Below are positions 1,557 through 26,533 of a stretch of 31,795 nucleotides of DNA, piece after piece (within the stretch, counting starts at the first letter, position 1; every line of letters begins with the position of its first letter). A program made the translations under genes and the position numbers. The stretch is from positions 1-31,795 of the IMG/VR virus record IMGVR_UViG_3300015264_000045; one strand, 5' to 3'. This stretch comes from a virus. The notes under the pieces were generated by a model. It worked only from the letters and a program-made list of their open reading frames with translations. It was not told the origin of the DNA and ran no database searches.

Positions 1557-1971
1557 CGTGCACGATACACTCGTCGACGTGCATAACATGCAAAGCAGTA
1601 TGCAAGCTGTTGCCGAGGTGCTAGGTGTGTATGGTGAAGCAGGTACACAACCTATCCACATGCCACACGCCATCGTACGCTTCTCACGAGCCCAGACACT
1701 ACAGCTGGAAGAATGTCTGATCACACGTCGTGGTGAGGATGCGACAGAAGAGACGCTAAGCCAGATAGTTCAAGAGTGGCTTGGTGTTATGTTCATGGCC
1801 GGCGTTGAGTATGGACGTGCAGGTCATACCTTCGACTACTGCGAGTGTGGTGACTTGAAAGCGAACACTCCGGAGGAACTATCACATGTCTGGAGCGACA
1901 ATGAGGGACAGAGGCGCAGTACTACTTCCGGCGCCTCCAGGAATGACGATTCAGCAGAAGCTGCAGAGTAA
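1549..1971 (+). CDS. Hypothetical protein (140 aa)
   Basis: ATGs occur at 1540 and 1549 in the same frame. AAGGAG at 1533-1538 is one base from the first and ten from the second, so 1549 is preferred. The protein is helical, with a CEC pair near residue 106 and a polar Ser/Asn/Glu-rich tail. Its last 86 bases overlap the start of the helicase gene in another frame. The low-complexity tail suggests the overlapping part is under helicase constraint. The family is not recognised, and the position before the helicase says little about its role. Confidence 0.6.
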   Translation: MTNVHDTLVDVHNMQSSMQAVAEVLGVYGEAGTQPIHMPHAIVRFSRAQTLQLEECLITRRGEDATEETLSQIVQEWLGVMFMAGVEYGRAGHTFDYCECGDLKANTPEELSHVWSDNEGQRRSTTSGASRNDDSAEAAE

Positions 1972-3502
1972 GTTCGTACTCCGTGACTTCCAAGCGGACA
2001 TGGTTGCTAAGTTTGTAAACGTACCTTTCGTGCTCTGCGGCGATGACATGGGTCTGGGGAAGACGTACGAAGGCATTGCGCTCGATCGCATCAAGCGACT
2101 ACGTGCAGGTAACCTTCAAACCAATGGTCACCGTCGAGTAGGCACGAGGAGAGCACGTACCTTAGTAGTCACCACTCTCACGATGGTTGACACTTGGCGT
2201 CGAGAGCTCGCTAAGACGATGCCCAACTTGAAGGTCTACTGTATCGACCCGAAGAATCGGCCTGCCTTCATTCATGCTGTGACTAAGGTTCTCTACGATG
2301 TGTACGTATGTCACTGGGACTCTCTACGGTTGATGCCTGAGCTAGCTGATGAACATTGGTTCCACATCATCGGTGACGAGATCCACAAGGTGAAGAACCG
2401 TAAGGCACAAGTAACTAGAGCCTTCAAGATGATCAAGGCAGACCATAAGCTAGGACTGTCTGGTACACCAGGAGACAACAGGCCTGACGACCTGTGGAGT
2501 CCTCTCAACTGGCTCTACCCTAGGAAGTTCACTTCGTACTGGAACTTCACCAAGATGTACTGTGAGTCTATTGCTCTGGAGAGCAAAGAAGGTAACGGCT
2601 ACTCCAAGATCACAGGCGTTAGAAACGAAGCGCACCTGCACAGAGAGATGGCACCCTTCTTCATTCGGAGACGGAAGGAGGAGGTAGCTGCAGATCTTCC
2701 TGACAAGTACTACTCACAGGTATGGGTTGACCTAAGTCCCAGCCAGCGACGTGCATACGATCAAATGAGGCGTGACCAATTAGCTTGGGTAGGTACTAAC
2801 CTAGACCAACCGCTAGCTGCTCCTATCGTGATCGCACGACTCATTCGATTGCAGCAGTTCGCACTAGGTCAGATCAGGATTGACGAGCTGCAGAAGTGGG
2901 TCAGGAACAAGAAGTATGACCCCTCGCGACCTCGTGCAGACTACGACCCTTACAGTCACTGGGAGCAGAACTGGGAACGTCGTCTCAAAGACGTGACTGA
3001 GTACCACATCATCGATCCCAGTTCGAAGCTCGATGCCTGCATGGACTTGATTAGAAACACTGACAGGTCAGTCGTAGTGTTCACTCAGTTCAAAGATGTA
3101 GTGTACAACCTGCAAGCAAGACTTAACAAGGACAAGACTACCTGGTGTGCTATCACAGGTGACGTTGCCAAGCCTGAACGTGATCGTGCTGTGGAGATGT
3201 TCCAAGCACGTCAGAGGCAAGTGTTCATCGGTACGATTGGTGCTGCACGGGAAGGGATTTCCCTCACAGCTGCATCGACAGAGATCTTCATCGACAGGGC
3301 TTGGAGTCCAAGTTGGAACAGGCAAGCTGAGGATCGTTGTCACCGTATCGGACAGTCAGATGGTGTACAGATCTATGACATCATAGCCAGGAACACTATC
3401 GACTTAGGTCGACACCAGACCATTCAGCAAAAATGGATATGGCTACAAAAACTATTCGGAGACAAGACACTAGACTACCAAGAGAAGATGGTGGCAGCAT
3501 GA
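1886..3502 (+). CDS. SNF2-type superfamily 2 helicase/ATPase
   Basis: This 538-residue protein is an ATP-dependent DNA translocase of superfamily 2. Visible motifs in order are Walker A with GLGKT at 56-60, DEIH (motif II) at 164-167, SGTP (motif III) at 192-195, a motif IV-like VVVFTQF, and the C-terminal AREGISLTAAS and QAEDRCHRIGQ blocks (motifs V and VI with the arginine finger). The HRIGQ ending is typical of SNF2 proteins. It has no extra chromatin or nuclease domain. The ATG at 1886 is chosen because GGAGGA lies nine bases upstream; an in-frame ATG at 1943 would shorten the overlap with the previous gene. In phages such helicases act in replication, recombination or remodelling of DNA-bound proteins; which applies here is unknown. 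Confidence 0.93.
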   Translation: MSGATMRDRGAVLLPAPPGMTIQQKLQSKFVLRDFQADMVAKFVNVPFVLCGDDMGLGKTYEGIALDRIKRLRAGNLQTNGHRRVGTRRARTLVVTTLTMVDTWRRELAKTMPNLKVYCIDPKNRPAFIHAVTKVLYDVYVCHWDSLRLMPELADEHWFHIIGDEIHKVKNRKAQVTRAFKMIKADHKLGLSGTPGDNRPDDLWSPLNWLYPRKFTSYWNFTKMYCESIALESKEGNGYSKITGVRNEAHLHREMAPFFIRRRKEEVAADLPDKYYSQVWVDLSPSQRRAYDQMRRDQLAWVGTNLDQPLAAPIVIARLIRLQQFALGQIRIDELQKWVRNKKYDPSRPRADYDPYSHWEQNWERRLKDVTEYHIIDPSSKLDACMDLIRNTDRSVVVFTQFKDVVYNLQARLNKDKTTWCAITGDVAKPERDRAVEMFQARQRQVFIGTIGAAREGISLTAASTEIFIDRAWSPSWNRQAEDRCHRIGQSDGVQIYDIIARNTIDLGRHQTIQQKWIWLQKLFGDKTLDYQEKMVAA

Positions 3503-10361: not shown

Positions 10362-12611
10362 ATGCAAGGTTTGGAAATCTTTTTCAAGTACCTCTTCGGG
10401 CCCTCTGTTAAAGGTTATGTATGTCTGGCACAACTGAGCAAGTCAAAAGAAGGCTTCAAGGAGCACTTCTTCAAATGGCCAGATCAGCTAGACGACATGA
10501 TCAACTACGTGGGCAAGTACACCTTCACTCATAATCTCTACCTCTGCCCTCAAATCCTCAACACCAAGGTTAGAAGGAAAGAGCACGTCATAGCTTGTCC
10601 TACTGCATGGGCAGACTTGGACGAGTGTTCCCCTGATGAGTGTATAGTACCTCCGACTATCTCTCTGGAGACTTCCGAAGGTAGATTCCAAGCATACTGG
10701 CGCTTCGAAGATCCTCTGGAACCAGAAGAAGCAGAGGCCTTGTCGCGAAAGATAGCGTACTACCACTCCTTCCAAGGTGCAGATAGAAGTGGCTGGGACC
10801 TTACACAGCTACTACGTGTTCCATACACACACAACTACAATCACGGCAGAGAAGATGAGATCGTCAAGGTCTTGTCAATCACTACGAATAAGTACCGAGA
10901 GTCAGACTTCGACAAGTATCCTGCAATCACCAAAGAGGTTGCAGATGACATACCGATGCCTGAAGGTCTGGAGGGTAAGTCGGGCGAAGACATACTTGAT
11001 AAGTATGCTGCAGAGTTGCCACCACAAGTAGACTTCCTATTCCACAACACACCAGACACTCCTAGCTGGAGCGAACAGCTCTGGCGTCTGCAGATGACCT
11101 TATTCGAGAATGGTCTCACACCAGAGGAAGTCTTCCTTGTCGCACGTGATGCACAGTGTAACAAGTACAGACGAGACAACAAGCCTGCTGGTCTGTTGTG
11201 GAAGGATGTCTGTCGTTCCTATGTTAAACACGCAGAGGTGGCGAAGCTCACCACACCACACGCACAGGAACAACCGCCTCTACTGGTGGCTAGTGAGGTT
11301 GAACGCCTTGCTGGTGTTGAAGCCGCTCAACGTGGAATCAACTTTGTAAATGACTACATCACTTGGGCGAAGTCTCTGGGAGACGCCGCAGCACAGTACC
11401 ACCAGGCTGGGGCTTTTATTATCCTCTCATCGTTGCTTGGTGGTTCGGTTCGACTACCAACATCGTTCGGGATGATCAAGCCTAACCTATGGTTTATGAT
11501 CCTAGCAGATACCACGTTGACACGCAAGTCGACTGCGATGGACATTGCCATGGACCTGATTGAGGAGGTAGATAGTGGTGCCATCCTTGCTACTGATGGC
11601 AGCATCGAAGGCCTTATGGGAAGCCTATCCACGCGTCCTGGACAGCCTTCGGTCTTCCTTCGAGATGAGTTCAGCGGACTCCTCGAATCGATCACCAAGA
11701 AAGATTACTATGCCGGAATGGCAGAAACGCTCACCAAGCTCTACGACGGAAAGTTCCAGAAGCGAGTCTTGAAGAAGGAAGTCATCGAGGTCAAGGATCC
11801 TGTTCTGATCCTCTTCGCTGGTGGCATTCGTAACAAGGTGTGCAGCCTGCTAACTGTAGAGAACATCTCTTCAGGCTTCGTGCCTCGCTTCGTGTTCATC
11901 ACGGCAGAATCAGATGCCTCGAAGGTACAACCGTTAGGACCTCCAACTAATCCTAACACTGAGGGTCGTATGGACATGCTCTCTCGAATGCGAGAGATGC
12001 ATAACCACTACAGGCTCGAACCAAAGATCGTAACCATAGACGGTCGCTTGCAGTATAGTGCACCACCTCACTGGGAAGCACAGTTGACCGAAGCTGCATG
12101 GCGTAGGTACAACCTGCTAGAGGCGGACTTGATGAAGGCTGGACTAGCTACTGACCAGCCAGAGATCATGACGCCTACGTATGACCGTCTCGCTAAGTCA
12201 ACCCTGAAGGCAGCAGTCCTCTTAGCAGCATCAGGACAGCGACCAGAGATCGGTGAACCAGTAGTCGTGGAGGAAGACGACCTACTAGTAGCTATTGCAT
12301 TGGCAGAGGGTTGGCGAGAGTATGCAAACCTCATCATCAAGGATGTGGGCATCTCCCAGAATGAAAGAGAGTTCCAACGTATCCTAGCGGCAGTAGGTCG
12401 GAAGAACGGAATCAGTCGCAGTCAGCTTATGCAGAATCATCATCTTACTGCACGGACTGCGGATCAGATCTTCTCGACCCTCGAACAACGTGGCCTCATC
12501 AACCGTGTCCGAACAGGAGGGTCGAGAGGCGAGCGGATCTTCCTACCGAACAGCAATACAAACCTAAAGCCTACTACAGTGAGGATCAGTGAACGTGAAG
12601 CGAATGATTGA
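10362..12611 (+). CDS. Primase-helicase: AEP-type primase with DUF3987 helicase domain
   Basis: 749 residues. The N-terminal part carries archaeo-eukaryotic primase features: the catalytic D-x-D in AWADLDEC (D85, D87), the strand TSEGRFQAYW (104-113) and LLRVPYTHNYNHG near 150-162. Residues about 330-560 form a DUF3987 helicase/ATPase core with a variant P-loop (DTTLTRKST, 383-391) and a Walker B-like VFLRDEF (431-437). A winged-helix-like segment near 670-730 precedes the end. The final residues TVRISEREAND echo the N-terminal motif of the SSB-like protein. AGGGAG precedes the ATG. It likely primes and unwinds at the replication fork. Confidence 0.85.
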   Translation: MQGLEIFFKYLFGPSVKGYVCLAQLSKSKEGFKEHFFKWPDQLDDMINYVGKYTFTHNLYLCPQILNTKVRRKEHVIACPTAWADLDECSPDECIVPPTISLETSEGRFQAYWRFEDPLEPEEAEALSRKIAYYHSFQGADRSGWDLTQLLRVPYTHNYNHGREDEIVKVLSITTNKYRESDFDKYPAITKEVADDIPMPEGLEGKSGEDILDKYAAELPPQVDFLFHNTPDTPSWSEQLWRLQMTLFENGLTPEEVFLVARDAQCNKYRRDNKPAGLLWKDVCRSYVKHAEVAKLTTPHAQEQPPLLVASEVERLAGVEAAQRGINFVNDYITWAKSLGDAAAQYHQAGAFIILSSLLGGSVRLPTSFGMIKPNLWFMILADTTLTRKSTAMDIAMDLIEEVDSGAILATDGSIEGLMGSLSTRPGQPSVFLRDEFSGLLESITKKDYYAGMAETLTKLYDGKFQKRVLKKEVIEVKDPVLILFAGGIRNKVCSLLTVENISSGFVPRFVFITAESDASKVQPLGPPTNPNTEGRMDMLSRMREMHNHYRLEPKIVTIDGRLQYSAPPHWEAQLTEAAWRRYNLLEADLMKAGLATDQPEIMTPTYDRLAKSTLKAAVLLAASGQRPEIGEPVVVEEDDLLVAIALAEGWREYANLIIKDVGISQNEREFQRILAAVGRKNGISRSQLMQNHHLTARTADQIFSTLEQRGLINRVRTGGSRGERIFLPNSNTNLKPTTVRISEREAND

Positions 12612-13296
12612 CAGTGTTGCCGTTGTGAGTGGTGGGATGGACTCAGTCACCCTCCTCTACTGGATGATGGAGTTCGATTACACTCCGCACGTCATCAGCT
12701 TCGACTACGGTCAGAAGCACGTGAAGGAACTGGAGATGGCTAACTACCACGCCACTCACCTGGGACTCTTGCACACCATTGTACCACTCACCGGCTTGAA
12801 CACACTGCTCAAGTCAGCCCTTACTTCCTCCGAAGAAGAGGTGCCTGAGGGTCATTACGCAGCAGACAATATGAAGGCTACAGTCGTTCCGAACAGGAAC
12901 ATGATCATGATGTCAATCGCTGCAGGTCTTCTGATCAGCGAGCATGGTGATACTCTCGCTGTAGGTGTGCATGCAGGAGACCACCAGATCTACCCAGACT
13001 GTCGCCCTGAGTTCATCGTACACATGGAAACGACCCTAAAGCTCGCGAACTCAGGCTTCCTCGACCCTCACTTCCAGATCGTAGCACCATTCGTGTACAT
13101 GGGGAAGCACGACATCGCAGCGATCGGCAAAGACTTCAACGTCGACTACAGCAAGACGTGGAGTTGCTACAAAGGTCAATCCTTGCATTGCGGTCGTTGC
13201 GGCACGTGTGTGGAGCGTAAGGAAGCCTTCGATCTCGCCAAGATGCAAGATCCTACAGCATACGAGACCGACTACGACACGGAGCCCGTAGCATGA
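12589..13296 (+). CDS. queC: 7-cyano-7-deazaguanine (preQ0) synthase QueC
   Basis: QueC converts 7-carboxy-7-deazaguanine to preQ0 using ATP and ammonia. The PP-loop SGGMDS is at residues 14-19. The zinc ligands C193-x7-C201-x2-C204-x2-C207 are intact near the C-terminus. At 235 residues it is a normal-length QueC with no glutamine amidotransferase fusion as seen in Gat-QueC proteins. The GTG start at 12589 overlaps the primase gene by 23 bases; the ATG at 12604 is an alternative. It opens the modification cluster. Confidence 0.95.
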   Translation: MNVKRMIDSVAVVSGGMDSVTLLYWMMEFDYTPHVISFDYGQKHVKELEMANYHATHLGLLHTIVPLTGLNTLLKSALTSSEEEVPEGHYAADNMKATVVPNRNMIMMSIAAGLLISEHGDTLAVGVHAGDHQIYPDCRPEFIVHMETTLKLANSGFLDPHFQIVAPFVYMGKHDIAAIGKDFNVDYSKTWSCYKGQSLHCGRCGTCVERKEAFDLAKMQDPTAYETDYDTEPVA

Positions 13297-13583
13297 GCAG
13301 CCTTGGAGTAGGACCACTAGGATCACCTCACATGCATGAGCCACTTCCTATCATGGAGCATGCAGACTCACTGATGGCACATATCAGCGAGTTGGAAGCT
13401 GAGCTGAAGAGTACATCTTACCTACTTGCAGCTCTGATCTACAAGCTCGGACCGCAGACGCTGACTGTGAAGGACTTGCGTGAAGCGCAAGGCATATCGA
13501 CGCTTCACGTTGAAGCACAACCTGCAACAGGGGCTATCCTGATCGAACTCACTACAGACACGAACAGGGAGCTCCCTGAATGA
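13293..13583 (+). CDS. Hypothetical protein within the preQ0 cluster (96 aa)
   Basis: This gene overlaps queC and queD by ATGA junctions, so it is made with them. A Met/His/Pro-rich N-terminus leads into a helix with coiled-coil features (LMAHISELEAELKSTSYLLA, residues 28-47), followed by a beta-rich tail. It resembles small phage proteins with a leucine-rich helix but not any known deazaguanine enzyme. Its role in modification, if any, is unknown. Confidence 0.6.
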   Translation: MSSLGVGPLGSPHMHEPLPIMEHADSLMAHISELEAELKSTSYLLAALIYKLGPQTLTVKDLREAQGISTLHVEAQPATGAILIELTTDTNRELPE

Positions 13584-14170
13584 CAAGCCCACATGGTCTC
13601 ACTGGTGTCTCCGTCGTAACGGTGAGTCACAACTTCGAGACGGCGCATCGCCTCCCGTTCCTAGGAGGCAAGTGTCAAAACCTTCACGGTCATTCGTGGG
13701 AGGTTGAAGTAGGTCTCGCCAACACAGCCTTCCTGTCAGGCATCAACGAGCACGGCATCTCCATCGAATACGGCCTCGCGAAGAAGGTTATTAGGAGCTG
13801 GATCGACGACAAGCTTGACCACGGCACGATGCTAGGTACAGATGATGCACTGGCAAGGTCCAGCGACACTCTCGACGAGATGGGCAAGGTATTCATCTTC
13901 GGCAGGCCTCTCGACGACTTCGATCAAACCTTGCAGCACGGTGTCTCTGACACCTACCTCGACTTGCCGTGGCCTACAGTCGAGGCTGTGGCGAGGATGC
14001 TGCACAGCAAGTTGCAGGCAGCTCTCACAGAGTCTTGCGGCGAATACATCATGGTCGACATGATTCGCGTCGAGGAGACTGAAGTCAATGCTTCACTCTA
14101 CATACCCGATACAACTCACCTTGAAGTCGGTCTCATGAGCAGGGAGTATTCATCACATGAGACTGAGTGA
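13580..14170 (+). CDS. queD: 6-carboxy-tetrahydropterin synthase QueD
   Basis: QueD makes 6-carboxy-5,6,7,8-tetrahydropterin from 7,8-dihydroneopterin triphosphate. The zinc histidines H23 (ETAHRLP) and H36/H38 (LHGHSW) and the catalytic Cys32 (GKCQNLHGH) are all present. RVEETEVNASLY near the C-terminus provides the pterin-binding Glu. At 196 residues it is longer than typical bacterial QueD because of an extra segment around residues 85-120 and a polar tail. It overlaps both neighbours. Confidence 0.93.
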   Translation: MTSPHGLTGVSVVTVSHNFETAHRLPFLGGKCQNLHGHSWEVEVGLANTAFLSGINEHGISIEYGLAKKVIRSWIDDKLDHGTMLGTDDALARSSDTLDEMGKVFIFGRPLDDFDQTLQHGVSDTYLDLPWPTVEAVARMLHSKLQAALTESCGEYIMVDMIRVEETEVNASLYIPDTTHLEVGLMSREYSSHETE

Positions 14171-14858
14171 GTTGTATACTTCAATCCAAGGCGAAGGGCC
14201 TAGCGTTGGAAGGCCTACTCAATTCGTGAGGTTTGCTGGTTGTAATCTCAAGTGCCCTGGCTGGCCTTGCGATACGCAACATGCCATCGATCCTAAGCTG
14301 TACAGGAACGAATGGCAAACGATTACTCCACAGGAACTACTTGTACGTGTGGAGCGTTGGCCGCGTGCCGTTACGCTCACCGGAGGGGAGCCTCTTCTAC
14401 AGCCTACGGACGATATGAAGTACTTTACGCAGACGCTCTTGGATCGTTACTACACCCTCGAGCTCTTCACGAATGGTACGTTCGAGCTACCTGCGTGGGC
14501 GCGTGACTTTCACACACGCATCATCATGGACTGGAAACTTCCAGGAAGTGGTGAAGACCCGTACAACCAGCAGCGCATTCAAAACGTACGGCATCACCTT
14601 GGTCGATACGACGCAGTCAAGTTCGTATGTGCTAATAGGTCAGACTTCGACCTTGCACTCGATCTGAAGGCTGCCTACGTTGACAATGACCCTGAGCGAG
14701 CTCCTTGGAATACGCCTCATGTATATGTAGGTGTAGCTTGGGGACTGCTCGAAGAGGCGGAACTGGTTGAATGGATACTCAAGGCTAAGATCGACAACCT
14801 TGAGCTGAATGTGCAAGTACACAACTACATCTGGCCAAGAGACGAGCGCCTACGTTAG
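14157..14858 (+). CDS. queE: 7-carboxy-7-deazaguanine synthase QueE (radical SAM)
   Basis: QueE is the radical S-adenosylmethionine enzyme that contracts carboxy-tetrahydropterin to 7-carboxy-7-deazaguanine. The N-terminus YTSIQGEGPSVGRPTQFVRF is typical. The cluster ligands are C29, C33 and C38 (GCNLKCPGWPCDT), spaced C-x3-C-x4-C rather than the standard C-x3-C-x2-C, so there are two extra residues. TLTGGEPLLQ (SAM-binding GGEP) follows. The length, 233 residues, is usual. The ATG overlaps the end of queD by 14 bases. Confidence 0.93.
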   Translation: MRLSELYTSIQGEGPSVGRPTQFVRFAGCNLKCPGWPCDTQHAIDPKLYRNEWQTITPQELLVRVERWPRAVTLTGGEPLLQPTDDMKYFTQTLLDRYYTLELFTNGTFELPAWARDFHTRIIMDWKLPGSGEDPYNQQRIQNVRHHLGRYDAVKFVCANRSDFDLALDLKAAYVDNDPERAPWNTPHVYVGVAWGLLEEAELVEWILKAKIDNLELNVQVHNYIWPRDERLR

Positions 14859-14870
14859 CTATGAGGTAAG

Positions 14871-15545
14871 ATGGTACAGTGGCATTCACCACTAGTCTAT
14901 CTCGTTCGTATTCCGAAAGAAGGTAATGTGTACCAGCGACCTGATCACGCACTTGTACAGGTGGTACAACAGTCAACTCGTCTCGAAGAGGTTGCACCTA
15001 CGTTGCTAGCCGATGCACTCTTGAAGCAACTCAGTGCAGACTACGACTCACTCGATCCACACTTCGCAAACACCGCGAAGCGGTGGGTTGCTTCGTTGAA
15101 GGAGCTTCTGACTCCTGAGCCCTTCAACTTCACCACCTTACCAGCTACCTCTGATGAGATGGTTGTACTCTCACCCATTCCCTTCTACACCATGTGTGCA
15201 CATCACGTCATTCCGTTCTATGGTCGAGCACATGTAGGCTACGTGCCACGAGAGAGCATTGCGGGACTATCGAAGTTCGGACGTCTTGTGAAGAACATGG
15301 CTAAGGGCTTGTGGGTGCAGGAGGATCTCACAGCTCATGTAGCAGACAAGATCGAGGCATACCTTGACCCACGAGGTGTAGCGGTTATCCTCGAAGGCGA
15401 ACACATGTGCATGTCGATGCGCGGCGTGCAGATGCCAGGAGTCGTTACCACCACGTCTGCAATGCGTGGTGTATTCGGAGATCATACCAGGACTGCTAAG
15501 GCAGAGTTCCTGCAAGTGATCGCACCTAGGAGAAACAATGGCTGA
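14871..15545 (+). CDS. folE: GTP cyclohydrolase I FolE
   Basis: FolE opens GTP to give 7,8-dihydroneopterin triphosphate, the first step toward preQ0. The zinc site is clear: C109 and H112 in YTMCAHHVIPF and C180 in GEHMCMSMRG. GRAHVGYVP and IAGLSKFGRLV are family signatures. The length (224 aa) is normal, with a variable N-terminus. GAGG is close to the ATG at 14871. The gene follows queE and precedes a MazG-like gene, so the phage does not depend on the host for this precursor. Confidence 0.95.
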   Translation: MVQWHSPLVYLVRIPKEGNVYQRPDHALVQVVQQSTRLEEVAPTLLADALLKQLSADYDSLDPHFANTAKRWVASLKELLTPEPFNFTTLPATSDEMVVLSPIPFYTMCAHHVIPFYGRAHVGYVPRESIAGLSKFGRLVKNMAKGLWVQEDLTAHVADKIEAYLDPRGVAVILEGEHMCMSMRGVQMPGVVTTTSAMRGVFGDHTRTAKAEFLQVIAPRRNNG

Positions 15546-15936
15546 GCCACAAGTAGGTATGAGAATCCAGATGAACCTACTCGATGTCCTCGCAGCACAG
15601 TGTGCGAAGGACAGCAAGGAATGGTTCCCTGAGGCAGCCAATGCAGCTTCAACCAACCCTGAAGAGCTGACTCGAGCACTCATCCACCACAGTCTAGCGA
15701 TGTGTGGTGAAGTTGGCGAGGTTGCTAACCTAGTCAAGAAGGTCGATCGAGGTACTGTAGACATCACCAACATCGTCTTCCAGAATGACATCCACGAAGA
15801 ACTGACCGACGTCTTCATCTACTTGCTCAACTTGGTAGCACTCCTCAAGATCGACTTGCTGAAGGAGTACATGAAGAAGCGTGACAAGAACGTGAAGCGC
15901 TTCAGTCGTACTCCTCAGAATGGAGCTCGTGCATGA
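15538..15936 (+). CDS. MazG-like nucleotide pyrophosphohydrolase
   Basis: The helical protein (132 aa) has the all-alpha NTP pyrophosphatase pattern: acidic helix CGEVGEVANLVKKVDRG near 61-77 and a second acidic helix EELTDVFIYLLNL near 87-99, which together supply the E-x2-E and E-x2-D metal ligands. Such enzymes hydrolyse dNTPs or unusual nucleotides. In a phage with modified guanine this may clean the nucleotide pool, though substrate cannot be read from sequence. It overlaps folE and the following DUF3310 gene. Confidence 0.8.
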   Translation: MAEPQVGMRIQMNLLDVLAAQCAKDSKEWFPEAANAASTNPEELTRALIHHSLAMCGEVGEVANLVKKVDRGTVDITNIVFQNDIHEELTDVFIYLLNLVALLKIDLLKEYMKKRDKNVKRFSRTPQNGARA

Positions 15937-16175
15937 TGAGTGATGCGGTAGTCCATCCGTTACACTACAACGAACACCCATCAGGCGTTGAGTGTATTGA
16001 TGTTGTAAAGCACATGAACTTCTGCCTAGGTAATGCCATGAAGTACATCTGGCGCGCCGATCTGAAGAACGATGCGATCGAAGACCTTCGCAAAGCGATT
16101 CAGTACATCGAGTTCGAGATCGATCGTCGCCTTAAGCTAGAAGCCAAGGCTCGAGAAGATGGGATCATAACATAA
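15933..16175 (+). CDS. DUF3310 protein
   Basis: The 80-residue sequence matches the DUF3310 pattern: HPLHYN near the start, then GVECIDVVKHMNF, GNAMKYIWRA and DAIEDLRKAIQYIEFEI. It is often annotated as nucleotide kinase-like in phages without biochemical support. The protein is mainly alpha-helical. The start ATG (15933 or 15936) overlaps the MazG-like stop. Its position between nucleotide-handling and modification genes fits a role in DNA metabolism. Confidence 0.8.
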   Translation: MMSDAVVHPLHYNEHPSGVECIDVVKHMNFCLGNAMKYIWRADLKNDAIEDLRKAIQYIEFEIDRRLKLEAKAREDGIIT

Positions 16176-16176
16176 C

Positions 16177-16941
16177 ATGAAGTTAGCATTAATTCCGTCA
16201 CGTGAATGCTTGTATGATCAAGCAGTACGTACAGGCTATCACCTACTACTGCCACAGCATACGGATGATCCGCTATATGGGGGATTCTACATGCGACGTC
16301 GTGCAGAGGGTGACTTCCTCATGCTCGACAATGGTGCATGTGAAGGTCATCTGGTCAGTAACGAGGAGCTGATGCAGACGGCAAACACGTACATGGTGAA
16401 TGAGATCGTCGTACCTGATGTTCTATGTGACATGGAAGCCACACTCAACCTCGTCAAAGGCTTCCAAGATGTTGCCTTGAATAGTCCAGAGTTCAACTAC
16501 ATGGGTGTGCTTCAAGGCCTAACGATGGCTGAGCTACTAGAGTGCCTACGCATGTATGCTCAGATGAGTTACATCAGTACGATAGCCATTCCACGTCATG
16601 TCGAGACAACCGTAGGTTACGGCACTCGCTGGAGGATAGTTCGACATATCAGGGAACACTACTCCTTTCCTCAAGGTCCTCACTACCAGATCCACCTGCT
16701 GGGCACCAATCCTGCCTACATAAATGAACTTATAGTACATAACCGTGACTACGAAGACGCAGGCGTGCGCGGAGTAGATACAGCGTCACCGTACTACTAC
16801 GCTATGAATGGCAAACTCATCAAGGACCTTGAAGGTTGTAAACGTCCTGATGATTACTACAACCACAAGTTCACCAAGTCCGAGCATCAGTTAGCGAAAG
16901 CTAACACATCCGAGGTGTCACTCTGGACCAGGGGGTCGTAG
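16177..16941 (+). CDS. dpdA: DpdA-like DNA guanine transglycosylase
   Basis: This 254-residue protein looks like a compact phage DpdA, a relative of tRNA-guanine transglycosylase that swaps guanine in DNA for a 7-deazaguanine. MLDNGACEG (D51) corresponds to the first catalytic Asp region, VVPDVLCD and MGVLQG to the base-binding strands, IAIPRH and HLLGTNP to later barrel strands, and RGVDTASP (D201) to the nucleophile. It lacks the cysteine zinc subdomain of tRNA enzymes. It is placed after folE, queE, queD and queC, which would supply preQ0. Start ATG 16177; it ends overlapping the polymerase region. Confidence 0.8.
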   Translation: MKLALIPSRECLYDQAVRTGYHLLLPQHTDDPLYGGFYMRRRAEGDFLMLDNGACEGHLVSNEELMQTANTYMVNEIVVPDVLCDMEATLNLVKGFQDVALNSPEFNYMGVLQGLTMAELLECLRMYAQMSYISTIAIPRHVETTVGYGTRWRIVRHIREHYSFPQGPHYQIHLLGTNPAYINELIVHNRDYEDAGVRGVDTASPYYYAMNGKLIKDLEGCKRPDDYYNHKFTKSEHQLAKANTSEVSLWTRGS

Positions 16942-16942
16942 T

Positions 16943-19351
16943 GTGGAGGAAGAGGACACGAGGGGACGTAAACATCCTCTTGCAGAGTGCGAGCGTTGTT
17001 CGCTCCGAGACACAGGAATCTTCGTCCCAACTAAGTTTCCCTCGCATCTACGAAGCGAGCGACGGACTGTACCTAGTACAAGCGCCGTGGGAGATCAAGT
17101 ATTTGCCGTTGTTGGCGAAGCACCTGGACTTCAAGAGGCCAACAGGGGCGAACCCTTCACCGGACCCTCAGGGCGCCTCCTCAACCGAGTGTTACAACAT
17201 TACGACATTGCCAGAGAGGAAGTGATCCTAACCAATGCCGTCCTCTGCAGACCACCAGACAACGACCTCAAGCCTCACAAAGGAGCTGTGGGATGCTGTA
17301 GTAAGCGTCTCGCAAATGATCTTGCAGGCGTGGATAAAGCGCTTGCGCTCGGAAACACCGCGGCCGGGATTCTTCTCGGAACTACTCAGAAAATTACTAG
17401 TCTCCGTGTTGGACCGCCTCGTCCATCTCGCCTCGTGGACGGTCTCCAAGTCGTCCCCACAATTCATCCAGCCGCTTGTCTTCGATCAGGAGACATGTTC
17501 CCTAGTCTCGTCAACGATGCAGGTAAGCTCATCTCAGTTGTCACAGGTTGGGAACCTCCAATCTATGTCGTGGCAACCGAGGTTGAACAGGCACTGGGAT
17601 ATCTACAACAGCTGATAGATAGGCCTGAACTCGAAGAGCTTGCCGTTGACATCGAAGCAGGTATCGACAAGGAGAACTCATACGACCACCCTAACCACTA
17701 CCAACTCCTCTGTGTAGGGATTTGCTATGCGAAAGGAAAGGTAGTAGTCATTGGAGAAGAACCACTTCTCGACCCGAGAGTAGTGGAACTACTTAGCACC
17801 CTCTTACGAACACGAAAGCTCATTGAACAGAACGGCAAGTTCGACAACGCAGGCTTGTACCCCCTACTCGGCAATATTGATGTCTGGTTCGACACCATGC
17901 TGGCTTCCTATTGCATCGACGAACGTCCAGGTAACCATGGTCTGAAGAACAATGCCACTGAGAAGCTAGGTGCGCCTGACTATGAACGAGAGATCCAGAA
18001 GTACCTCGGAGTCGGAAAGCAAAAGAACTACGCAACCATTCCTCGACCAATCCTATACAAGTACAACGCCTACGACTGCGCTGTCACCTGGGACCTCAAG
18101 GAGTACTTTTCAGCGGAACTGGAACGCTTGGGTCTCCGAGGACTACACGACTTCCTCGTTGCCGCTACGAACCAGCTGAAGTTCCTGGAGCTCAACGGGA
18201 TCACAGTCGACCGTAAGTGGAATATGGAACTAGGGAACCAGTACCTAGAAGCCCTGGCTGCCTTAGAAGGAAACCTAGATAGTACTCTACCTCCAGAAGC
18301 TATGTACGATAAGCGTGGAGGGATCAATCCACGCTCGCCTCAGCAGCTCATGAAGTACTTCCAAGACAACAAGATCAATGTTAAGGATACTACTAGAGAC
18401 ACCATCGAGCTCTTGCTAGAGAGTAAGGATCGACTCAAGCTTGTACCTAGGGTCGTAGAGTTCCTAGAGATCCTCTTACAGCATCGTTTGAAGGCAAAGC
18501 GATATGGTACCTACATCAAGGGGATTGCATCGCGTGTGTATCGTGGGCGTGTATATACTACGTATAGCCTCCACGGTACAACCTCAGGACGCCTTGCATC
18601 GAGGAATCCTAACCTACAGAACATCGTACGAGATAAGCCCATCAAGAGACAGTTCACTGTCTCCAAGCCGGAGAACATCTTCGTAGGCGCTGACTATAAG
18701 CAAGCTGAAGGCCGTGTCATCGCGACTCTTGCCCAAGACGAATACCTGAGGGATATCTTTAGTGACACTGAGGCTGACCTGTTCACTGCGCTTGGACGGG
18801 ATCTGTATGGGCAGGAGCTGCTTAATGCAGACGAACGTGTTAGAGTCAAGGCCTACTTTTACGGTCTCGGTTATGGGCGGCAGGCTCATAGCATCGCTGC
18901 CGAGTGGGGAATGTCAGTACGTGAAGCCGAAGAAGGACTCACGGCTTTCATGGACCTCATCCCGAACGTTGCGAAGTGGCAAAGAAGCATCCGTGAACAA
19001 ATCCTGAGTGGTGAGGACCTTGTCACAACTTTCGGACGTAGACGCCGTTTTTGGCTTATTACCAAAGAGAACAAGCAAGACGTCCTCAACGAGGGTTTGT
19101 CCTTCCTGCCTCAATCTACTTCCTCCGATATCTGCCTCTCTGCACTTATACGTCTGCGACCTATGCTCCGCGGTCTTGGACATCTCCGACTCACAATTCA
19201 CGACGCACTTTATGCTGAGTGCCCGGAGGAACGGAAAGATGAGGTTGGGGATCTTCTTCGGACTGTTATGGAGGAAGAAGGTCGTCGCTGGACCGACTAC
19301 GTACCATTCGCAGTAGATCTTTCATACGGTAAAAGCTGGGGTGATATGTAA
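16943..19351 (+). CDS. Family A DNA polymerase with N-terminal uracil-DNA glycosylase domain
   Basis: 802 residues from GTG 16943. Residues 10-215 form a family 4-like UDG: C16-x2-C19, VGEAPG (57-62), GEPFTGPSG (69-77), TNAVLCRPP (C102), C118/C119 and the catalytic-loop HPA (175-177), including four candidate Fe-S cysteines. Residues 225-400 are a 3'-5' exonuclease with D236/E238, D301 and Y374-x3-D378 intact. The polymerase domain has TSGRLASRNPNLQNI, motif A D584-YKQAEGR, O-helix R632/K636/Y640 and motif C H753-D754-A755. It should replicate the phage genome with proofreading; the UDG could remove uracil from template DNA. No frameshift is seen. Confidence 0.93.
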   Translation: MEEEDTRGRKHPLAECERCSLRDTGIFVPTKFPSHLRSERRTVPSTSAVGDQVFAVVGEAPGLQEANRGEPFTGPSGRLLNRVLQHYDIAREEVILTNAVLCRPPDNDLKPHKGAVGCCSKRLANDLAGVDKALALGNTAAGILLGTTQKITSLRVGPPRPSRLVDGLQVVPTIHPAACLRSGDMFPSLVNDAGKLISVVTGWEPPIYVVATEVEQALGYLQQLIDRPELEELAVDIEAGIDKENSYDHPNHYQLLCVGICYAKGKVVVIGEEPLLDPRVVELLSTLLRTRKLIEQNGKFDNAGLYPLLGNIDVWFDTMLASYCIDERPGNHGLKNNATEKLGAPDYEREIQKYLGVGKQKNYATIPRPILYKYNAYDCAVTWDLKEYFSAELERLGLRGLHDFLVAATNQLKFLELNGITVDRKWNMELGNQYLEALAALEGNLDSTLPPEAMYDKRGGINPRSPQQLMKYFQDNKINVKDTTRDTIELLLESKDRLKLVPRVVEFLEILLQHRLKAKRYGTYIKGIASRVYRGRVYTTYSLHGTTSGRLASRNPNLQNIVRDKPIKRQFTVSKPENIFVGADYKQAEGRVIATLAQDEYLRDIFSDTEADLFTALGRDLYGQELLNADERVRVKAYFYGLGYGRQAHSIAAEWGMSVREAEEGLTAFMDLIPNVAKWQRSIREQILSGEDLVTTFGRRRRFWLITKENKQDVLNEGLSFLPQSTSSDICLSALIRLRPMLRGLGHLRLTIHDALYAECPEERKDEVGDLLRTVMEEEGRRWTDYVPFAVDLSYGKSWGDM

Positions 19352-19353
19352 GA

Positions 19354-19662
19354 ATGTCCGGAGTTAATTGGGTTTGGCTAACCATCACTATCGTACTCGA
19401 AGTGATCGGTACCACGCTCTGTATTGTAGACAAGAAGTGTAAAGGAGACATCCTATGTCTTATGACGCGGAAGGGCAAGCGGAATACAGAAGGAAAAACC
19501 CAGACTACGTTCGACGATCAACCTTACAAAAGCAGGCGCGTGTTAAGGCTTTGGGTATCCTCCAGCGTAGGCATAAGGCAGAGTTCGACAACCTCTACGA
19601 CAGATGTTGCAAGGAGCTCGAAATCGATCCACCAAGGAGGTGGGCATCACAGTGAGAGGTAA
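19354..19662 (+). CDS. Possible small membrane protein, C-terminus doubtful
   Basis: An ATG two bases after the polymerase stop begins a frame whose first 30 residues form a plausible membrane helix (VNWVWLTITIVLEVIGTTL) followed by CIVDKKCKG. From about 19455 on, it overlaps the next gene in another frame and becomes Ser/Thr/Arg-rich, as expected of an out-of-frame reading. The real protein may be short with its stop lost, or this may not be a gene. No strong ribosome-binding site is present. Confidence 0.35.
   Translation: MSGVNWVWLTITIVLEVIGTTLCIVDKKCKGDILCLMTRKGKRNTEGKTQTTFDDQPYKSRRVLRLWVSSSVGIRQSSTTSTTDVARSSKSIHQGGGHHSER
19455..19655 (+). CDS. Small basic hypothetical protein (66 aa)
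   Basis: AAAGGAGA precedes the ATG at 19455 by a good distance, so the start is well supported. The protein is very basic, with Arg/Lys-rich helices (EYRRKNPDYVRRST, RVKALGILQRRHKAEF) and two adjacent cysteines. That suits a small nucleic-acid-binding protein, but there is no clear family signature. Its TGA overlaps the GTG of the HNH-like gene. Confidence 0.65.
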   Translation: MSYDAEGQAEYRRKNPDYVRRSTLQKQARVKALGILQRRHKAEFDNLYDRCCKELEIDPPRRWASQ

Positions 19663-19978
19663 GCCAGCCCGAGAGGGTGATCGGTACGTCTCGCAGAATG
19701 GTTACAGCTACACCAAGGTCGATGGTAAGTGGAAGATGACTCATCACATCGTTGCCGAAGAGATGATCGGTCGACCTATCGCTGAAGACGAGCAGGTAAG
19801 GTTCAAGAGCAACAACAGGTTAGATCTTCGTCCAGGTAATATCGAAGTCGTCAAGCGTGGTAAGACTTCCCTACGTCGTCGCAAGGCTCAGCTCGAGGCG
19901 CGTATCGAAGAACTGCAAGCGCAGCTTGATCTCGTCAACAAGGAGCTAGAAGCTCAGAGCGTCGTTGCTAACGCTTAG
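19652..19978 (+). CDS. HNH-like protein with degenerate active site and coiled-coil tail
   Basis: The GTG at 19652 overlaps the upstream stop and has AAGGAGG eleven bases before it; upstream in-frame codons lie in the previous gene. Residues about 18-67 resemble the HNH_3 homing-endonuclease fold: KMTHHIVAEEMIGRPI, then QVRFKSNNRLDLRPGNIEVV. The usual VHH catalytic histidines before the Asn-rich loop are replaced by VRF, so cleavage may be lost. The last 35 residues form a heptad coiled coil (RRRKAQLEARIEELQAQLDL). It may now bind DNA as a dimer. Its TAG stop is part of the first TAGAC of module 2. Confidence 0.75.
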   Translation: MRGKPAREGDRYVSQNGYSYTKVDGKWKMTHHIVAEEMIGRPIAEDEQVRFKSNNRLDLRPGNIEVVKRGKTSLRRRKAQLEARIEELQAQLDLVNKELEAQSVVANA

Positions 19979-22841: not shown

Positions 22842-23990
22842 CTACGCACCTTCTTGGATTATTTGCGCATTGTAGTTTACAGTGGTGATACCAACGCTCT
22901 CAGGTCCTTGCTGACTATCAGGTGGTGACAGGGCCCAGCCTGTGATCCTCGTACATCCTTTACGTACTGTTGGGAACCTGTAAGGGTCTGCAAGCACGTA
23001 GTCGACGAAGTCGCCCAATCCCCAGTTACCAAAAGCTGAGTCACCTGTGTTAGGATTGAGTACGCAAGCGAAGGTAGGGTTAAGAATAGGGGGCTCGAGT
23101 ACGTCTCGCATGGCTAGCAGCCTCTGCTGTAAGAGCGTTACGTTCTCAGTCTCACTGAATGTGAATCGTTGACGGAGACGTGGGTAGCCACTGGCGAGGT
23201 TGGCCGAGTTAGTAACCACTGCACGAGGTGTACTAGTAGTATTAGCTTTACCAATTCCCGACAGGACGTTAGCTGCATCAGTAGCAGACTCAGACCACCA
23301 GTACTTAGCGATGTCTCCAGGATACTGGAATAGTGAGCGTGCAACACCTGAGGTGTAGTGGATACCGATCATGTAAGCATCACCTAGGTCCCACCGACCT
23401 AGATCGAGTGCTGCTTGGCGTACTCCTGAAGTGTCCTTGAAGTACCTGATACGATACTCCACACCTGCACGTACATACTCATTGACAACATCTGCCCAGT
23501 ACGTATTGTCTACACCGACTAGTGTCTTGGTGACTGTAGAGCCCCCATCACTACCTACTGCTGCAGGCACTTGTAGTACACCCACAGCATTGGCACCGAC
23601 GTTGAATGCTCTGTCGAACATGGTTCGTACGATGTTGGTCTTGTAGTCAGTTAGTGTAAGGTCAACGTCGCAGTAGTCCTTACCTAAGTAGGCATCAAGC
23701 GTCCTAGCCTGAAACTGCATTGATCGACCATCGCTCTGGTATGTGCGTACCCATAAGATGCCACACCAGATAGGTACTTTATCGCGTTCTACCCATACAA
23801 GAGTTTTACCTGGCTGCGTCGCATCAAGGATGTCCTGTGGCTTCCGCATACGTGAGTCCATACGTATGGTGCCTGTCCAGTCACCCGGCGCCGACAGTGA
23901 TTGTGTCATATTGAGACCATACAGACCAGGCAGTTCGTCTAGTAGTTGTCGAGTCGCGAGATCTTCGAAGAAGTATTTGTATTCGGGCAT
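22842..23990 (-). CDS. Tail protein resembling ReqiPepy6 Gp37 family
   Basis: 382 residues; GAGG lies shortly before the ATG at 23990. Beta-rich segments with Trp and Gly (GDWTGTIRMDSRM, VWVERDKVPIWCGILW) and a central YWADVVNEYVRAGVEYRIRY look like the baseplate-hub or minor tail proteins grouped with Rhodococcus phage ReqiPepy6 Gp37 (PF14594). Such proteins follow Dit at the tail tip. Here it lies after the endolysin and an HNH gene, within the same - strand transcript. Confidence 0.7.
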   Translation of the reverse strand: MPEYKYFFEDLATRQLLDELPGLYGLNMTQSLSAPGDWTGTIRMDSRMRKPQDILDATQPGKTLVWVERDKVPIWCGILWVRTYQSDGRSMQFQARTLDAYLGKDYCDVDLTLTDYKTNIVRTMFDRAFNVGANAVGVLQVPAAVGSDGGSTVTKTLVGVDNTYWADVVNEYVRAGVEYRIRYFKDTSGVRQAALDLGRWDLGDAYMIGIHYTSGVARSLFQYPGDIAKYWWSESATDAANVLSGIGKANTTSTPRAVVTNSANLASGYPRLRQRFTFSETENVTLLQQRLLAMRDVLEPPILNPTFACVLNPNTGDSAFGNWGLGDFVDYVLADPYRFPTVRKGCTRITGWALSPPDSQQGPESVGITTVNYNAQIIQEGA

Positions 23991-24039
23991 TTACCTCACC
24001 ACCCTCTCTGCTAGACGAACTGCCGTCAGTCATTACCTG

Positions 24040-24462
24040 TTAGCTGATCAGATTACGTACGAACTGCTCACCTTCATAGTCAGCAGCTGCAGCTACGTGC
24101 TTACCTCCATGTCCACGATGATGCCACTCGCAGAGCCACTCCAGATTCTCTGCAGATTCAATCCACGAGCCTACCTGGTTAGGATTACTGATTCCAGGAT
24201 ACTGCTTCTCCAGCTCCTTGAAGTCTACACCGTTCTGGAACGAGAACTCGATGTGCGAGTGGTGCAGCTCCATAGCGCCTTTACACTCTGCACCGTTACC
24301 AGTCTTGACTGCGAATGCACATTGTGCTGTTGCATGAGTTCTGCGCCTGTAGGCTTCGAACTCGGGGTAGTGTGGATCACCTGGCCGAGGCGCATGTGCA
24401 GGATAGTGCACAGTGTACTTGTGACTATCCGTCTGATCATGTGCTGGAATAGGTGATGTCAC
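24040..24462 (-). CDS. HNH endonuclease
   Basis: GTG at 24460-24462 overlaps the endolysin stop. The metal finger uses C48, C60 and C111 with H114/H115. The catalytic core has ELHHSHIEF (H67/H68), N106 in SAENLEWLC and HHRGHGG. These residues are intact, so nuclease activity is expected. HNH genes inserted among tail genes are usually selfish homing elements; none of its neighbours is obviously interrupted. A role in packaging is less likely because no terminase is nearby. Confidence 0.85.
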   Translation of the reverse strand: MTSPIPAHDQTDSHKYTVHYPAHAPRPGDPHYPEFEAYRRRTHATAQCAFAVKTGNGAECKGAMELHHSHIEFSFQNGVDFKELEKQYPGISNPNQVGSWIESAENLEWLCEWHHRGHGGKHVAAAADYEGEQFVRNLIS

Positions 24463-25418
24463 GGTGCTGGCCGAGGAGTTAACGTGATAGATCCAGTGGT
24501 GTCGTAGGTACCTGCAATGACAGGCGCCACTCCACCTGTAGTACTACCTTCAGCCTTCTGTGCTGCGAGGATAGCGTCCAGCTTAGCCGGAACACTCCTC
24601 TGCGCTTCTGAGGATCGCAGCAGCTCATCGAACGTAGCCTGATTCACTACGTATACAGGGAAGTTGGCTAGCGGATTCACAGCGCCATCAGCTGCAGCCG
24701 CATCGACTCCAGTAATGAAGCCTCCATTCAGAATAGCGATTCCACCAGGGTACTTGATAAGCATTGTATCGTCCTCTCGAGGAGTTGGTTGTGTGGCGGG
24801 TGTTGGTGAGACCTGATAGCTTACTTGACCCCAATCAGGCTTGAGGATGTCGCTAGCGTCACACTGCACGCCGCCAACATTTACATACCCGGCATGCTGA
24901 TACAGATTCGCATCAGCAAAGCGAGCACCGCCTGACCATGCTACTGTCTGCCAGAAGCGTGAGGCAACTCCTGCGACCTTAAGAGCATCGAGGACCGTTT
25001 TCTTACCATACATGCCTGTACGCTGTACATTGAGTACATCGTTCCAGCCCCGAGCATACTCGATGATACCTGGAAAGTCACTTCCAGGCGCATCGTAGTC
25101 AACTGCACCGTAGATGCATCGCAGATCATACACAGGCACAATCTCAAGAGCTCGTGCTAATGCCCACTGACCATCATGCACGCCAGCGGCACGACCCTCA
25201 CGTGACCGGTTAGGCTTGATGTGTTCGTACACAAACGCCACACCGCAGCCGGCACTCGCGAGACTGTTGTACTCTGCAACGTTGATAGGTACTACCGTAC
25301 TCGTAGTACCCTGATAAGGTTCCTTACGAAGGTACCTCACAGCACCTGCATAACCAGCAGCTCTCACCGCTTGCCCATTCAGATGTGCTGAACAATCTAG
25401 CACTTGTCCTAAAGCCAT
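24459..25418 (-). CDS. DUF1906-type endolysin or tail-associated glycoside hydrolase
   Basis: 319 residues; GGAGGAGG precedes the ATG at 25418. Residues 1-205 match the DUF1906 (Rv2525c-like glycoside-hydrolase-like) domain: LDCSAHLNGQAVRAAGYAG at the start, AFVYEHIKPNRS, VPVYDLRCIYGAVDYD, and WGQVSYQ. After a Thr/Pro linker there is a second domain (TMLIKYPGGIAILNGG...) of unknown kind, perhaps cell-wall binding. No signal peptide is seen, as expected for a holin-released lysin. It probably degrades host cell wall, either as endolysin or tail lysin. Confidence 0.8.
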   Translation of the reverse strand: MALGQVLDCSAHLNGQAVRAAGYAGAVRYLRKEPYQGTTSTVVPINVAEYNSLASAGCGVAFVYEHIKPNRSREGRAAGVHDGQWALARALEIVPVYDLRCIYGAVDYDAPGSDFPGIIEYARGWNDVLNVQRTGMYGKKTVLDALKVAGVASRFWQTVAWSGGARFADANLYQHAGYVNVGGVQCDASDILKPDWGQVSYQVSPTPATQPTPREDDTMLIKYPGGIAILNGGFITGVDAAAADGAVNPLANFPVYVVNQATFDELLRSSEAQRSVPAKLDAILAAQKAEGSTTGGVAPVIAGTYDTTGSITLTPRPAP

Positions 25419-25439
25419 ACCTCCTCCACTCTGCCTCTA

Positions 25440-26525
25440 TTAGACGTTAACCATCAGACCATTGTTGGCTGCTGGTGCTTGAGGGACAATCTTGAAGTAG
25501 TACACGGCTTCACCATTGACTGCAGCGTTGATACCCGTTACCCGATTGAAGTTGACCACTACTGAGTGTGCGCCTGTCTGGACAGCACTTCGGAACCAGT
25601 ACGTGCTAGTCCTGTTCACATATGGAATGGCACAGATTCCATTAGCAAGGAAGGCACCACCAGAAGTATCCAGTGTGAGTACAATGTCCCAGCGTGTAGT
25701 AGTATTATCACTGTTACAGTTCGCACTGAACATGCCTTCAATGAAGTATGGGTAACCAGGATCAGGAATACTAATTGTGCCTACGACACTACTGGATGTG
25801 TAAAGTCCATATGTAATGCCGGAGGAGTTGTATACCTGATTGTCAACACCTACAGGACGCCATCCAGTAGTAGGGTCTGCATTCCAGCTTTCAATACGTC
25901 CGTTGTAGTATCGCAGGTCGCCGTAGTCGATACCTGCCGACGAGATGTTGAACGGTCGTGCGATTGCGACGCCGCCTTGACAGGTGTAGAAAGAACGTAG
26001 GTCAGTGATCTTCGCTTGCACGATTGAAGTCACACCTGGACTGACAAGAACCTGAGCCATCGCCGCAACGTTAGTAGGTAGCGCGCCAAAGTTAGGTACG
26101 GCACTACCTACAGCTGCGTTAGTACCTACAATCAGACCGAAGTCATCCTTGTTCAAGGCACCTGAGTACTGCGCATCGTTGGTGTAGATGTAGATCAGGT
26201 CGATGCGTTCCAACGTGATATGCGAAGCACCAATTGCGATGGGGTTGATCTCAGCATCGTTCGCAATGACGTAGTTGCCTTGGGTGTTCGCCTCTAGTCC
26301 CGGAATCGAACCTAGGCCACGCGTCATTCGTACAGACATGTTCGGAGTAGTCTGTGCAAGTACCTTGAACGAGTTTGCAGCGAAGCGTACACCTCCACCG
26401 CCAGCCAAGCTGGCTGCAGGTGTGAAGCTGTCTGGCTTGAGGAGCGATGTGTACGCTAGACGATGTGTGTTGGCGTGGTGATCTGTACGGCCCTGGAAGA
26501 AGCCGCCCGGTACCATGATGGCCAC
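25440..26525 (-). CDS. Minor tail / tail-tip protein (361 aa)
   Basis: GTG at 26525 is close to AGGAGG. The N-terminal 190 residues have features of phage tail-tip proteins (RTDHHANTHRLAYTSL, RFAANSFKVLAQ, HITLERIDLIYI). The C-terminal part is a beta-rich, Gly/Thr/Ser/Asn-rich domain that could bind carbohydrate. Its position after Dit and before the endolysin supports a baseplate or receptor-binding role. No catalytic motif is visible. Confidence 0.7.
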   Translation of the reverse strand: MAIMVPGGFFQGRTDHHANTHRLAYTSLLKPDSFTPAASLAGGGGVRFAANSFKVLAQTTPNMSVRMTRGLGSIPGLEANTQGNYVIANDAEINPIAIGASHITLERIDLIYIYTNDAQYSGALNKDDFGLIVGTNAAVGSAVPNFGALPTNVAAMAQVLVSPGVTSIVQAKITDLRSFYTCQGGVAIARPFNISSAGIDYGDLRYYNGRIESWNADPTTGWRPVGVDNQVYNSSGITYGLYTSSSVVGTISIPDPGYPYFIEGMFSANCNSDNTTTRWDIVLTLDTSGGAFLANGICAIPYVNRTSTYWFRSAVQTGAHSVVVNFNRVTGINAAVNGEAVYYFKIVPQAPAANNGLMVNV

Positions 26526-26533
26526 AATACCTC

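Follow-up and report, generated by a model that had tools for sequence, protein, structure and literature searches.

A phage gene cluster for preQ0 synthesis with a predicted DpdA-type DNA guanine transglycosylase from a sparsely annotated branch

Introduction

A 31.8-kb (31,795 nt) fragment of an uncultured virus, the IMG/VR record IMGVR_UViG_3300015264_000045 (the window, i.e., the whole stretch of DNA analysed), carries four genes for the synthesis of preQ0 (7-cyano-7-deazaguanine) and a gene for a short DpdA-like guanine transglycosylase. The locus raises the question of where this preQ0 ends up: in the phage DNA, in tRNA, or in some further-processed base. The genes form one tightly packed operon on the + strand, with a primase gene on one side and a gene for a fusion of uracil-DNA glycosylase (UDG) with DNA polymerase I (PolA) on the other; neighbouring genes of the operon overlap or lie no more than 12 bases apart. 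An earlier reading of this DNA from its letters alone (the sequence-only reading) had named the genes of the cluster, and each was found where that reading had placed it, on the + strand and free of frameshifts. The gene set is far beyond chance, as dozens of different viral contigs have it around their DpdA homologues. Its best explanation, which we consider highly probable, is preQ0 synthesis coupled with a DpdA-type exchange of guanine in the phage DNA.

The preQ0 biosynthesis genes

Four genes of the operon code for the enzymes of the preQ0 pathway:

12589..13296, + strand: queC, 7-cyano-7-deazaguanine synthase (PF06508, 1.6e-61; TIGR00364, 184.9 bits against an equivalog cut-off of 150.3)
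13580..14170, + strand: queD, 6-carboxytetrahydropterin synthase (PF01242, 1.2e-21; phrog_2389, 5.3e-27; under the TIGR03367 cut-off)
14157..14858, + strand: queE, radical S-adenosylmethionine (SAM) 7-carboxy-7-deazaguanine synthase (phrog_2076, 2.4e-34)
14871..15545, + strand: folE, GTP cyclohydrolase I (PF01227, 2.6e-47; structure 1wm9, E 1.3e-36)

The start codon of queC is GTG or, alternatively, ATG at 12604, and its product is a stand-alone QueC without a glutamine amidotransferase domain. The SGGxDS (SGGMDS) and C-x7-C-x2-C-x2-C motifs of QueC are intact in an alignment to 3bl5, as are the zinc and catalytic motifs of QueD (AHRL, C, and HGH; alignment to 2oba), while the zinc and catalytic residues of FolE (CxHH and HxCM) align with those of 1wm9. 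QueE was aligned to the solved QueE structures 6nhl, 5tgs, and 4njg, the alignment spanning the cluster region. The complete route from GTP to preQ0 claimed by the sequence-only reading is thus borne out, with all four enzymes present, three of them with intact motifs and QueE with a spacing variant.

The cluster motif of the window QueE is CNLKCPGWPC, i.e., CX3CX4C and not the canonical CX3CX2C; it retains the three cysteines, with two additional residues between the second and the third, in a protein matching its family at full length. The CX3CX4C form is common to six relatives (viral contigs encoding a homologue of the transglycosylase: L006, L013, L015, L019, L031, and L032), the loop at this site is longer still in L016–L018, the QueE of Flavobacterium phage immuto has CX3CX7C, and most of the remaining relatives have CX3CX2C. 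The CX3CX2C spacing is not required of QueE as such. A QueE with CX14CX2C is on record, the extension, as the motif is written there, lying between the first two cysteines (PMC4389238). The motif variant poses a small, clean question for radical-SAM enzymology. In contig L055, near position 2761, queE is apparently split by an intein within the radical-SAM cysteine motif (a fragment is found in L058); the intein end reads ...THN/CDTKYALE, and splicing would restore the cluster site.

The transglycosylase: detection, fold, and active site

The gene proposed to use preQ0 closes the cluster:

16177..16941, + strand: DpdA-like guanine transglycosylase of 254 amino acids, DpdA3-like branch (by fold and family profile)

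No Pfam or NCBIfam family matched this open reading frame (ORF), and its match to the PADLOC DpdA profile was weak (E 0.0011), such a match being given by 8 of 60 family members. Since a direct sequence search of the PDB returned noise only, structure comparison was needed. A search of viral contigs with the single sequence found nothing, and a profile search based on an alignment of three sequences gave 74 relatives; among contigs of cellular genomes, only one encodes a relative. The AlphaFold2 model, built with 60 aligned sequences, is of high confidence (predicted local distance difference test, pLDDT, 95.5; predicted template modelling score, pTM, 0.92). The 50 best PDB matches to the model in Foldseek were all tRNA-guanine transglycosylases (TGTs; TGT E 1.7e-6), and the top viral structural match was a protein of Cellulophaga phage phiST (TM 0.84). 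In VIA-align, the model scored Z 17.1 against the archaeal TGT 1iq8 and Z 16–17 over the full chain against TGT, archaeal TGT (arcTGT), and DpdA; against the crystallised DpdA, a DNA preQ0 insertase (7ui4), Z was 17.0, with a root-mean-square deviation of 3.5 over 230 residues. On the basis of its modelled triosephosphate isomerase (TIM) barrel fold, the protein is assigned to the TGT/DpdA guanine transglycosylase superfamily. The structure comparison with known DpdA suggested by the sequence-only reading has thereby given a high-confidence TGT/DpdA fold, and the fold, the nucleophile aspartate, and a DpdA-type HxxG motif lend good support to that reading's prediction of an enzyme exchanging guanine in DNA.

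Seven residues, L50, D51, N52, E56, H173, G176, and D201, are invariant in all 60 homologues. The profile alignment places Asp201 on Asp264 of E. coli TGT, and the latter is equivalent to Asp280 of the Zymomonas mobilis enzyme. In Z. mobilis TGT, Asp280 is the nucleophile (PMC3660597). Asp201 is accordingly the predicted nucleophile of the window enzyme, and Asp51 its predicted second catalytic residue. His173 and its motif, HLLG, have their counterpart in the HxxG motif of DpdA proteins from phages (KLHAFG in slur01, KTHALG in phiSM), while E. coli TGT has YLMG; the motif sits on the strand preceding the nucleophile, and its copy in 9g DpdA, KVHGFG, contains His196, the residue to which Hutinet et al. 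refer (PMC6884629). The zinc motif of tRNA TGT was sought as well, and neither a CxCxxC in the window protein nor a conserved set of cysteines across the family was found.

Placement among DpdA branches

A hidden Markov model (HMM) of the family, built leaving out immuto, CP220, and StAshley, matches the DpdA of immuto (4e-42), a protein of Brevundimonas phage StAshley (1e-29), and CPT_0056 of Campylobacter phage CP220 (2e-28). Its matches to Dp-1 DpdA and to the 464-amino-acid ORF390 of Vibrio phage nt-1, which we take to be a DpdA2, are marginal (E 0.005 at Z 1000 for ORF390, whose structural match is remote as well). Identity with DpdA1 was rejected, as the window enzyme has LDNGACE in place of DSGAF and the HMM gave no significant match to the DpdA proteins of 9g, slur01, and Godines. 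By homology, the enzyme therefore groups with the immuto DpdA and the CP220 protein, a branch reportedly named DpdA3 by Cui et al. in 2023; the label is applied here by homology. In the tree, the window enzyme shares a well-supported clade with those of L006 and further uncultured phages, separate from immuto and CP220, the positions of these two and of StAshley being unsure owing to their long branches. dpdA is the least conserved enzyme gene of the cluster, with 53% identity to its counterpart in L006 (8001–8738), against 61–69% for its neighbours.

In CP220 (contig L081, 5995–6771), CPT_0056 is annotated as a "hypothetical phage protein" and is a member of this transglycosylase family. In the GenBank records of phages BSP7, BSTP5, BSTP8, BSTP10, BSTP12, and Youna2, the dpdA-like gene is labelled hypothetical, integrase/recombinase, polynucleotide kinase, or NadR; the integrase, kinase, and NadR labels look like misannotations.

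Conservation of the neighbourhood and later-acting enzymes

Of the 43 relatives represented by 12 kb of sequence or more, 35 have the complete set of preQ0 genes no farther than 8 kb from dpdA, and 39 have three or all four of them nearby. In 56 of 66 relatives, a gene for PolA lies downstream of dpdA, no more than 1 kb away. Enzymes that would process preQ0 further were sought in relatives on contigs of up to 55 kb, including the nearest one, L006 (52 kb). No QueF scored over the cut-off in the 14 relatives covered by that search; the QueF-profile matches below the cut-off we take, by position, to be FolE genes of the related T-fold. Neither GATase_6 nor formyltransferase exceeded the cut-off in the window and nine relatives, nor did PF01702 TGT in the window or relatives.

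The proposed modification and its alternatives

In the proposed mechanism, the phage's own FolE, QueD, QueE, and QueC would convert GTP to preQ0, and the short DpdA-family transglycosylase would swap guanine for preQ0 in the phage DNA: Asp201 would attack C1' of deoxyguanosine (dG), guanine would leave, and the deazaguanine would enter in its place. The purpose would presumably be to shield the DNA from host restriction. Because no gene for QueF was found in the 14 relatives, nor one for an amidotransferase or a formyltransferase in the window and nine relatives, the likeliest base is preQ0 or 7-amido-7-deazaguanine (ADG), the latter being an intermediate of QueC. Phages with DpdA and the four preQ0 genes but no amidotransferase carry the preQ0 deoxynucleoside, dPreQ0, which replaces 32% of G in CAjan and 28% in Rosebush (PMC6884629). 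Since these two phages share the gene set of the window, dPreQ0 is the most likely modified nucleoside of the virion DNA by analogy, with the ADG deoxynucleoside (dADG) second.

The sequence-only reading had spoken of some guanines being replaced, and this may be too low, because phages with a reported full substitution have an enzyme of the same group as this transglycosylase: in CP220 and CPt10, 100% of dG is replaced by dADG (PMC8306585). Hutinet et al. placed the dADG-carrying Campylobacter phages in a group without DpdA (PMC6884629). By analogy with CP220, near-complete replacement of guanine may occur in the window phage. A bolder proposal, that a large, unannotated, probably actinobacterial phage clade replaces all or nearly all of its guanine with preQ0 or ADG, by means of a short, polymerase-adjacent DpdA3-type enzyme and a QueE whose spacing we did not find described for QueE, is tentative and on the doubtful side.

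Several points weigh against the assignment of the cluster to DNA modification. QueD, QueE, and FolE, for all their clear family matches, score below the strict NCBIfam cut-offs, and the cluster spacing of QueE is non-canonical. Taken alone, the placement on E. coli TGT by profile alignment is weak (E 0.03), and the strength of the structural match is the reason for relying on it. In sequence, the window enzyme is only remotely similar to a named DpdA: it is 27% identical to that of Youna2, which in turn connects to immuto at 26%, and the nucleoside chemistry on record comes from phages outside the clade of the window enzyme. Finally, the record is a fragment, and a later-acting enzyme may lie beyond it.

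The last point bears on the alternative that survives best, in which later processing gives a different final base (G+, preQ1, or another), the enzyme being encoded outside the 31.8-kb fragment or by an unrecognised gene. The related cluster of immuto does contain QueF and a formyltransferase, but in the relatives of about 50 kb, L006 among them, nothing scored over the cut-off for QueF, GATase_6, or formyltransferase, and we regard such processing as improbable.

Still less probable is that the preQ0 genes contribute to the queuosine of the host, with tRNA as the substrate of the TGT-like enzyme, so that the cluster tunes translation without any modification of DNA. The fold is indeed common to tRNA enzymes, and Hutinet et al. 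proposed a boosting of tRNA modification for phages with preQ0 genes but no DpdA (PMC6884629). However, the window enzyme shows neither the zinc-binding cysteines nor the PF01702 signature of tRNA TGT, has the DpdA-type HxxG, adjoins the DNA polymerase in most relatives, and groups with the immuto DpdA and with a protein of a phage with dADG-containing DNA, while QueF, needed for bacterial queuosine, was not found in the 14 relatives searched. These features argue for DNA as the substrate and for preQ0 synthesis with DpdA-type exchange as the explanation of the cluster.

The small gene between queC and queD

One gene lies between the first two enzyme genes:

13293..13583, + strand: ORF of 96 amino acids, function unknown, with 4-nt overlaps (ATGA) with queC and queD

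It has no family match in Pfam, PHROG, NCBIfam, or PADLOC and no homologue in phage records. In viral contigs and the queC–queD ORFs of relatives, its sole detectable homologue is L006:5190–5465, at the same position and with 34% identity, against 53–69% for the cluster enzymes of the same pair; other relatives with the equivalent enzymes have unrelated ORFs or none in this place. Its structure model is of low confidence and unusable (pLDDT 57.6). The sequence-only reading had taken it for a candidate new component of the pathway, which, despite its start and stop codons overlapping queC and queD and its counterpart in L006, is hardly credible given that low identity and the variable content of the slot. 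From these comparisons we judge it to be an accessory small phage gene.

Genomic context and probable host

The remaining genes of the operon and its flanks are as follows:

10362..12611, + strand: primase/helicase with DUF3987 (phrog_10514, 3.6e-102), flanking the cluster upstream and marking a replication operon
15538..15936, + strand: MazG-like nucleotide pyrophosphohydrolase, in the operon (phrog_229, 3.8e-8; MazG slightly under the cut-off)
15933..16175, + strand: DUF3310 small protein, in the operon (PF11753, 2.8e-14)
16943..19351, + strand: UDG–DNA polymerase I fusion, directly 3' of dpdA (PF00476, 3e-59; PF03167, 4.4e-21)

The UDG domain forms the N-terminal part of the polymerase, and the relatives carry an equivalent primase/helicase neighbour. 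Elsewhere in the window, genes for an SNF2-type helicase and an HNH endonuclease lie on the + strand (1886–3502 and 19604–19978), and those for tail, Dit, tape-measure, and endolysin proteins on the – strand (22842–30282), the latter set pointing to a tailed phage of the siphovirus type. The host is probably actinobacterial, as the primase has relatives in phages of Microbacterium, Gordonia, Arthrobacter, and Streptomyces, and the endolysin is Rv2525c-like.

Comparison with known systems

The branch of DNA transglycosylases to which the window enzyme is assigned, known from a few cultured phages, gains no fewer than 74 contigs of uncultured viruses. Most of its members belong to PHROG families without an assigned function, and neither Pfam nor NCBIfam detects the window enzyme. 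With the cultured relatives, i.e., BSP7, the BSTP phages, and Youna2, the prediction can be tested directly, as can the idea that near-complete replacement of guanine is common to the branch.

In Youna2 (Weizmannia) and BSP7/BSTP (Bacillus), the gene order is that of the window—primase, queC, a small ORF, queD, queE, folE, dpdA-like gene, polA—with transglycosylases 27–28% identical to that of the window and small ORFs unrelated to its own. Immuto shares the LDN...E and HLLG motifs of the enzyme and has the preQ0 genes, but its cluster differs in also containing QueF and a formyltransferase. tRNA TGTs (Z. mobilis, E. coli, and archaeal) match the window enzyme in the TIM-barrel fold and the position of the nucleophile aspartate, whereas the latter is shorter, lacks the zinc motif, and has no PF01702 match. 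Bacterial DpdA is part of a bacterial modification island; the fold of 7ui4 matches the whole chain, but with 18% identity and 413 residues. The DpdA systems of CAjan and Rosebush, like that of the window, comprise FolE, QueD, QueE, QueC, and a guanine transglycosylase without an amidotransferase (PMC6884629), while their enzyme is of the DpdA1 type (DSGAF, about 310 amino acids), in contrast to the LDNGACE and 254 amino acids of the window enzyme. By this comparison, the cluster probably represents a known, anti-restriction type of modification system, built around a transglycosylase from a sparsely annotated branch of DpdA.

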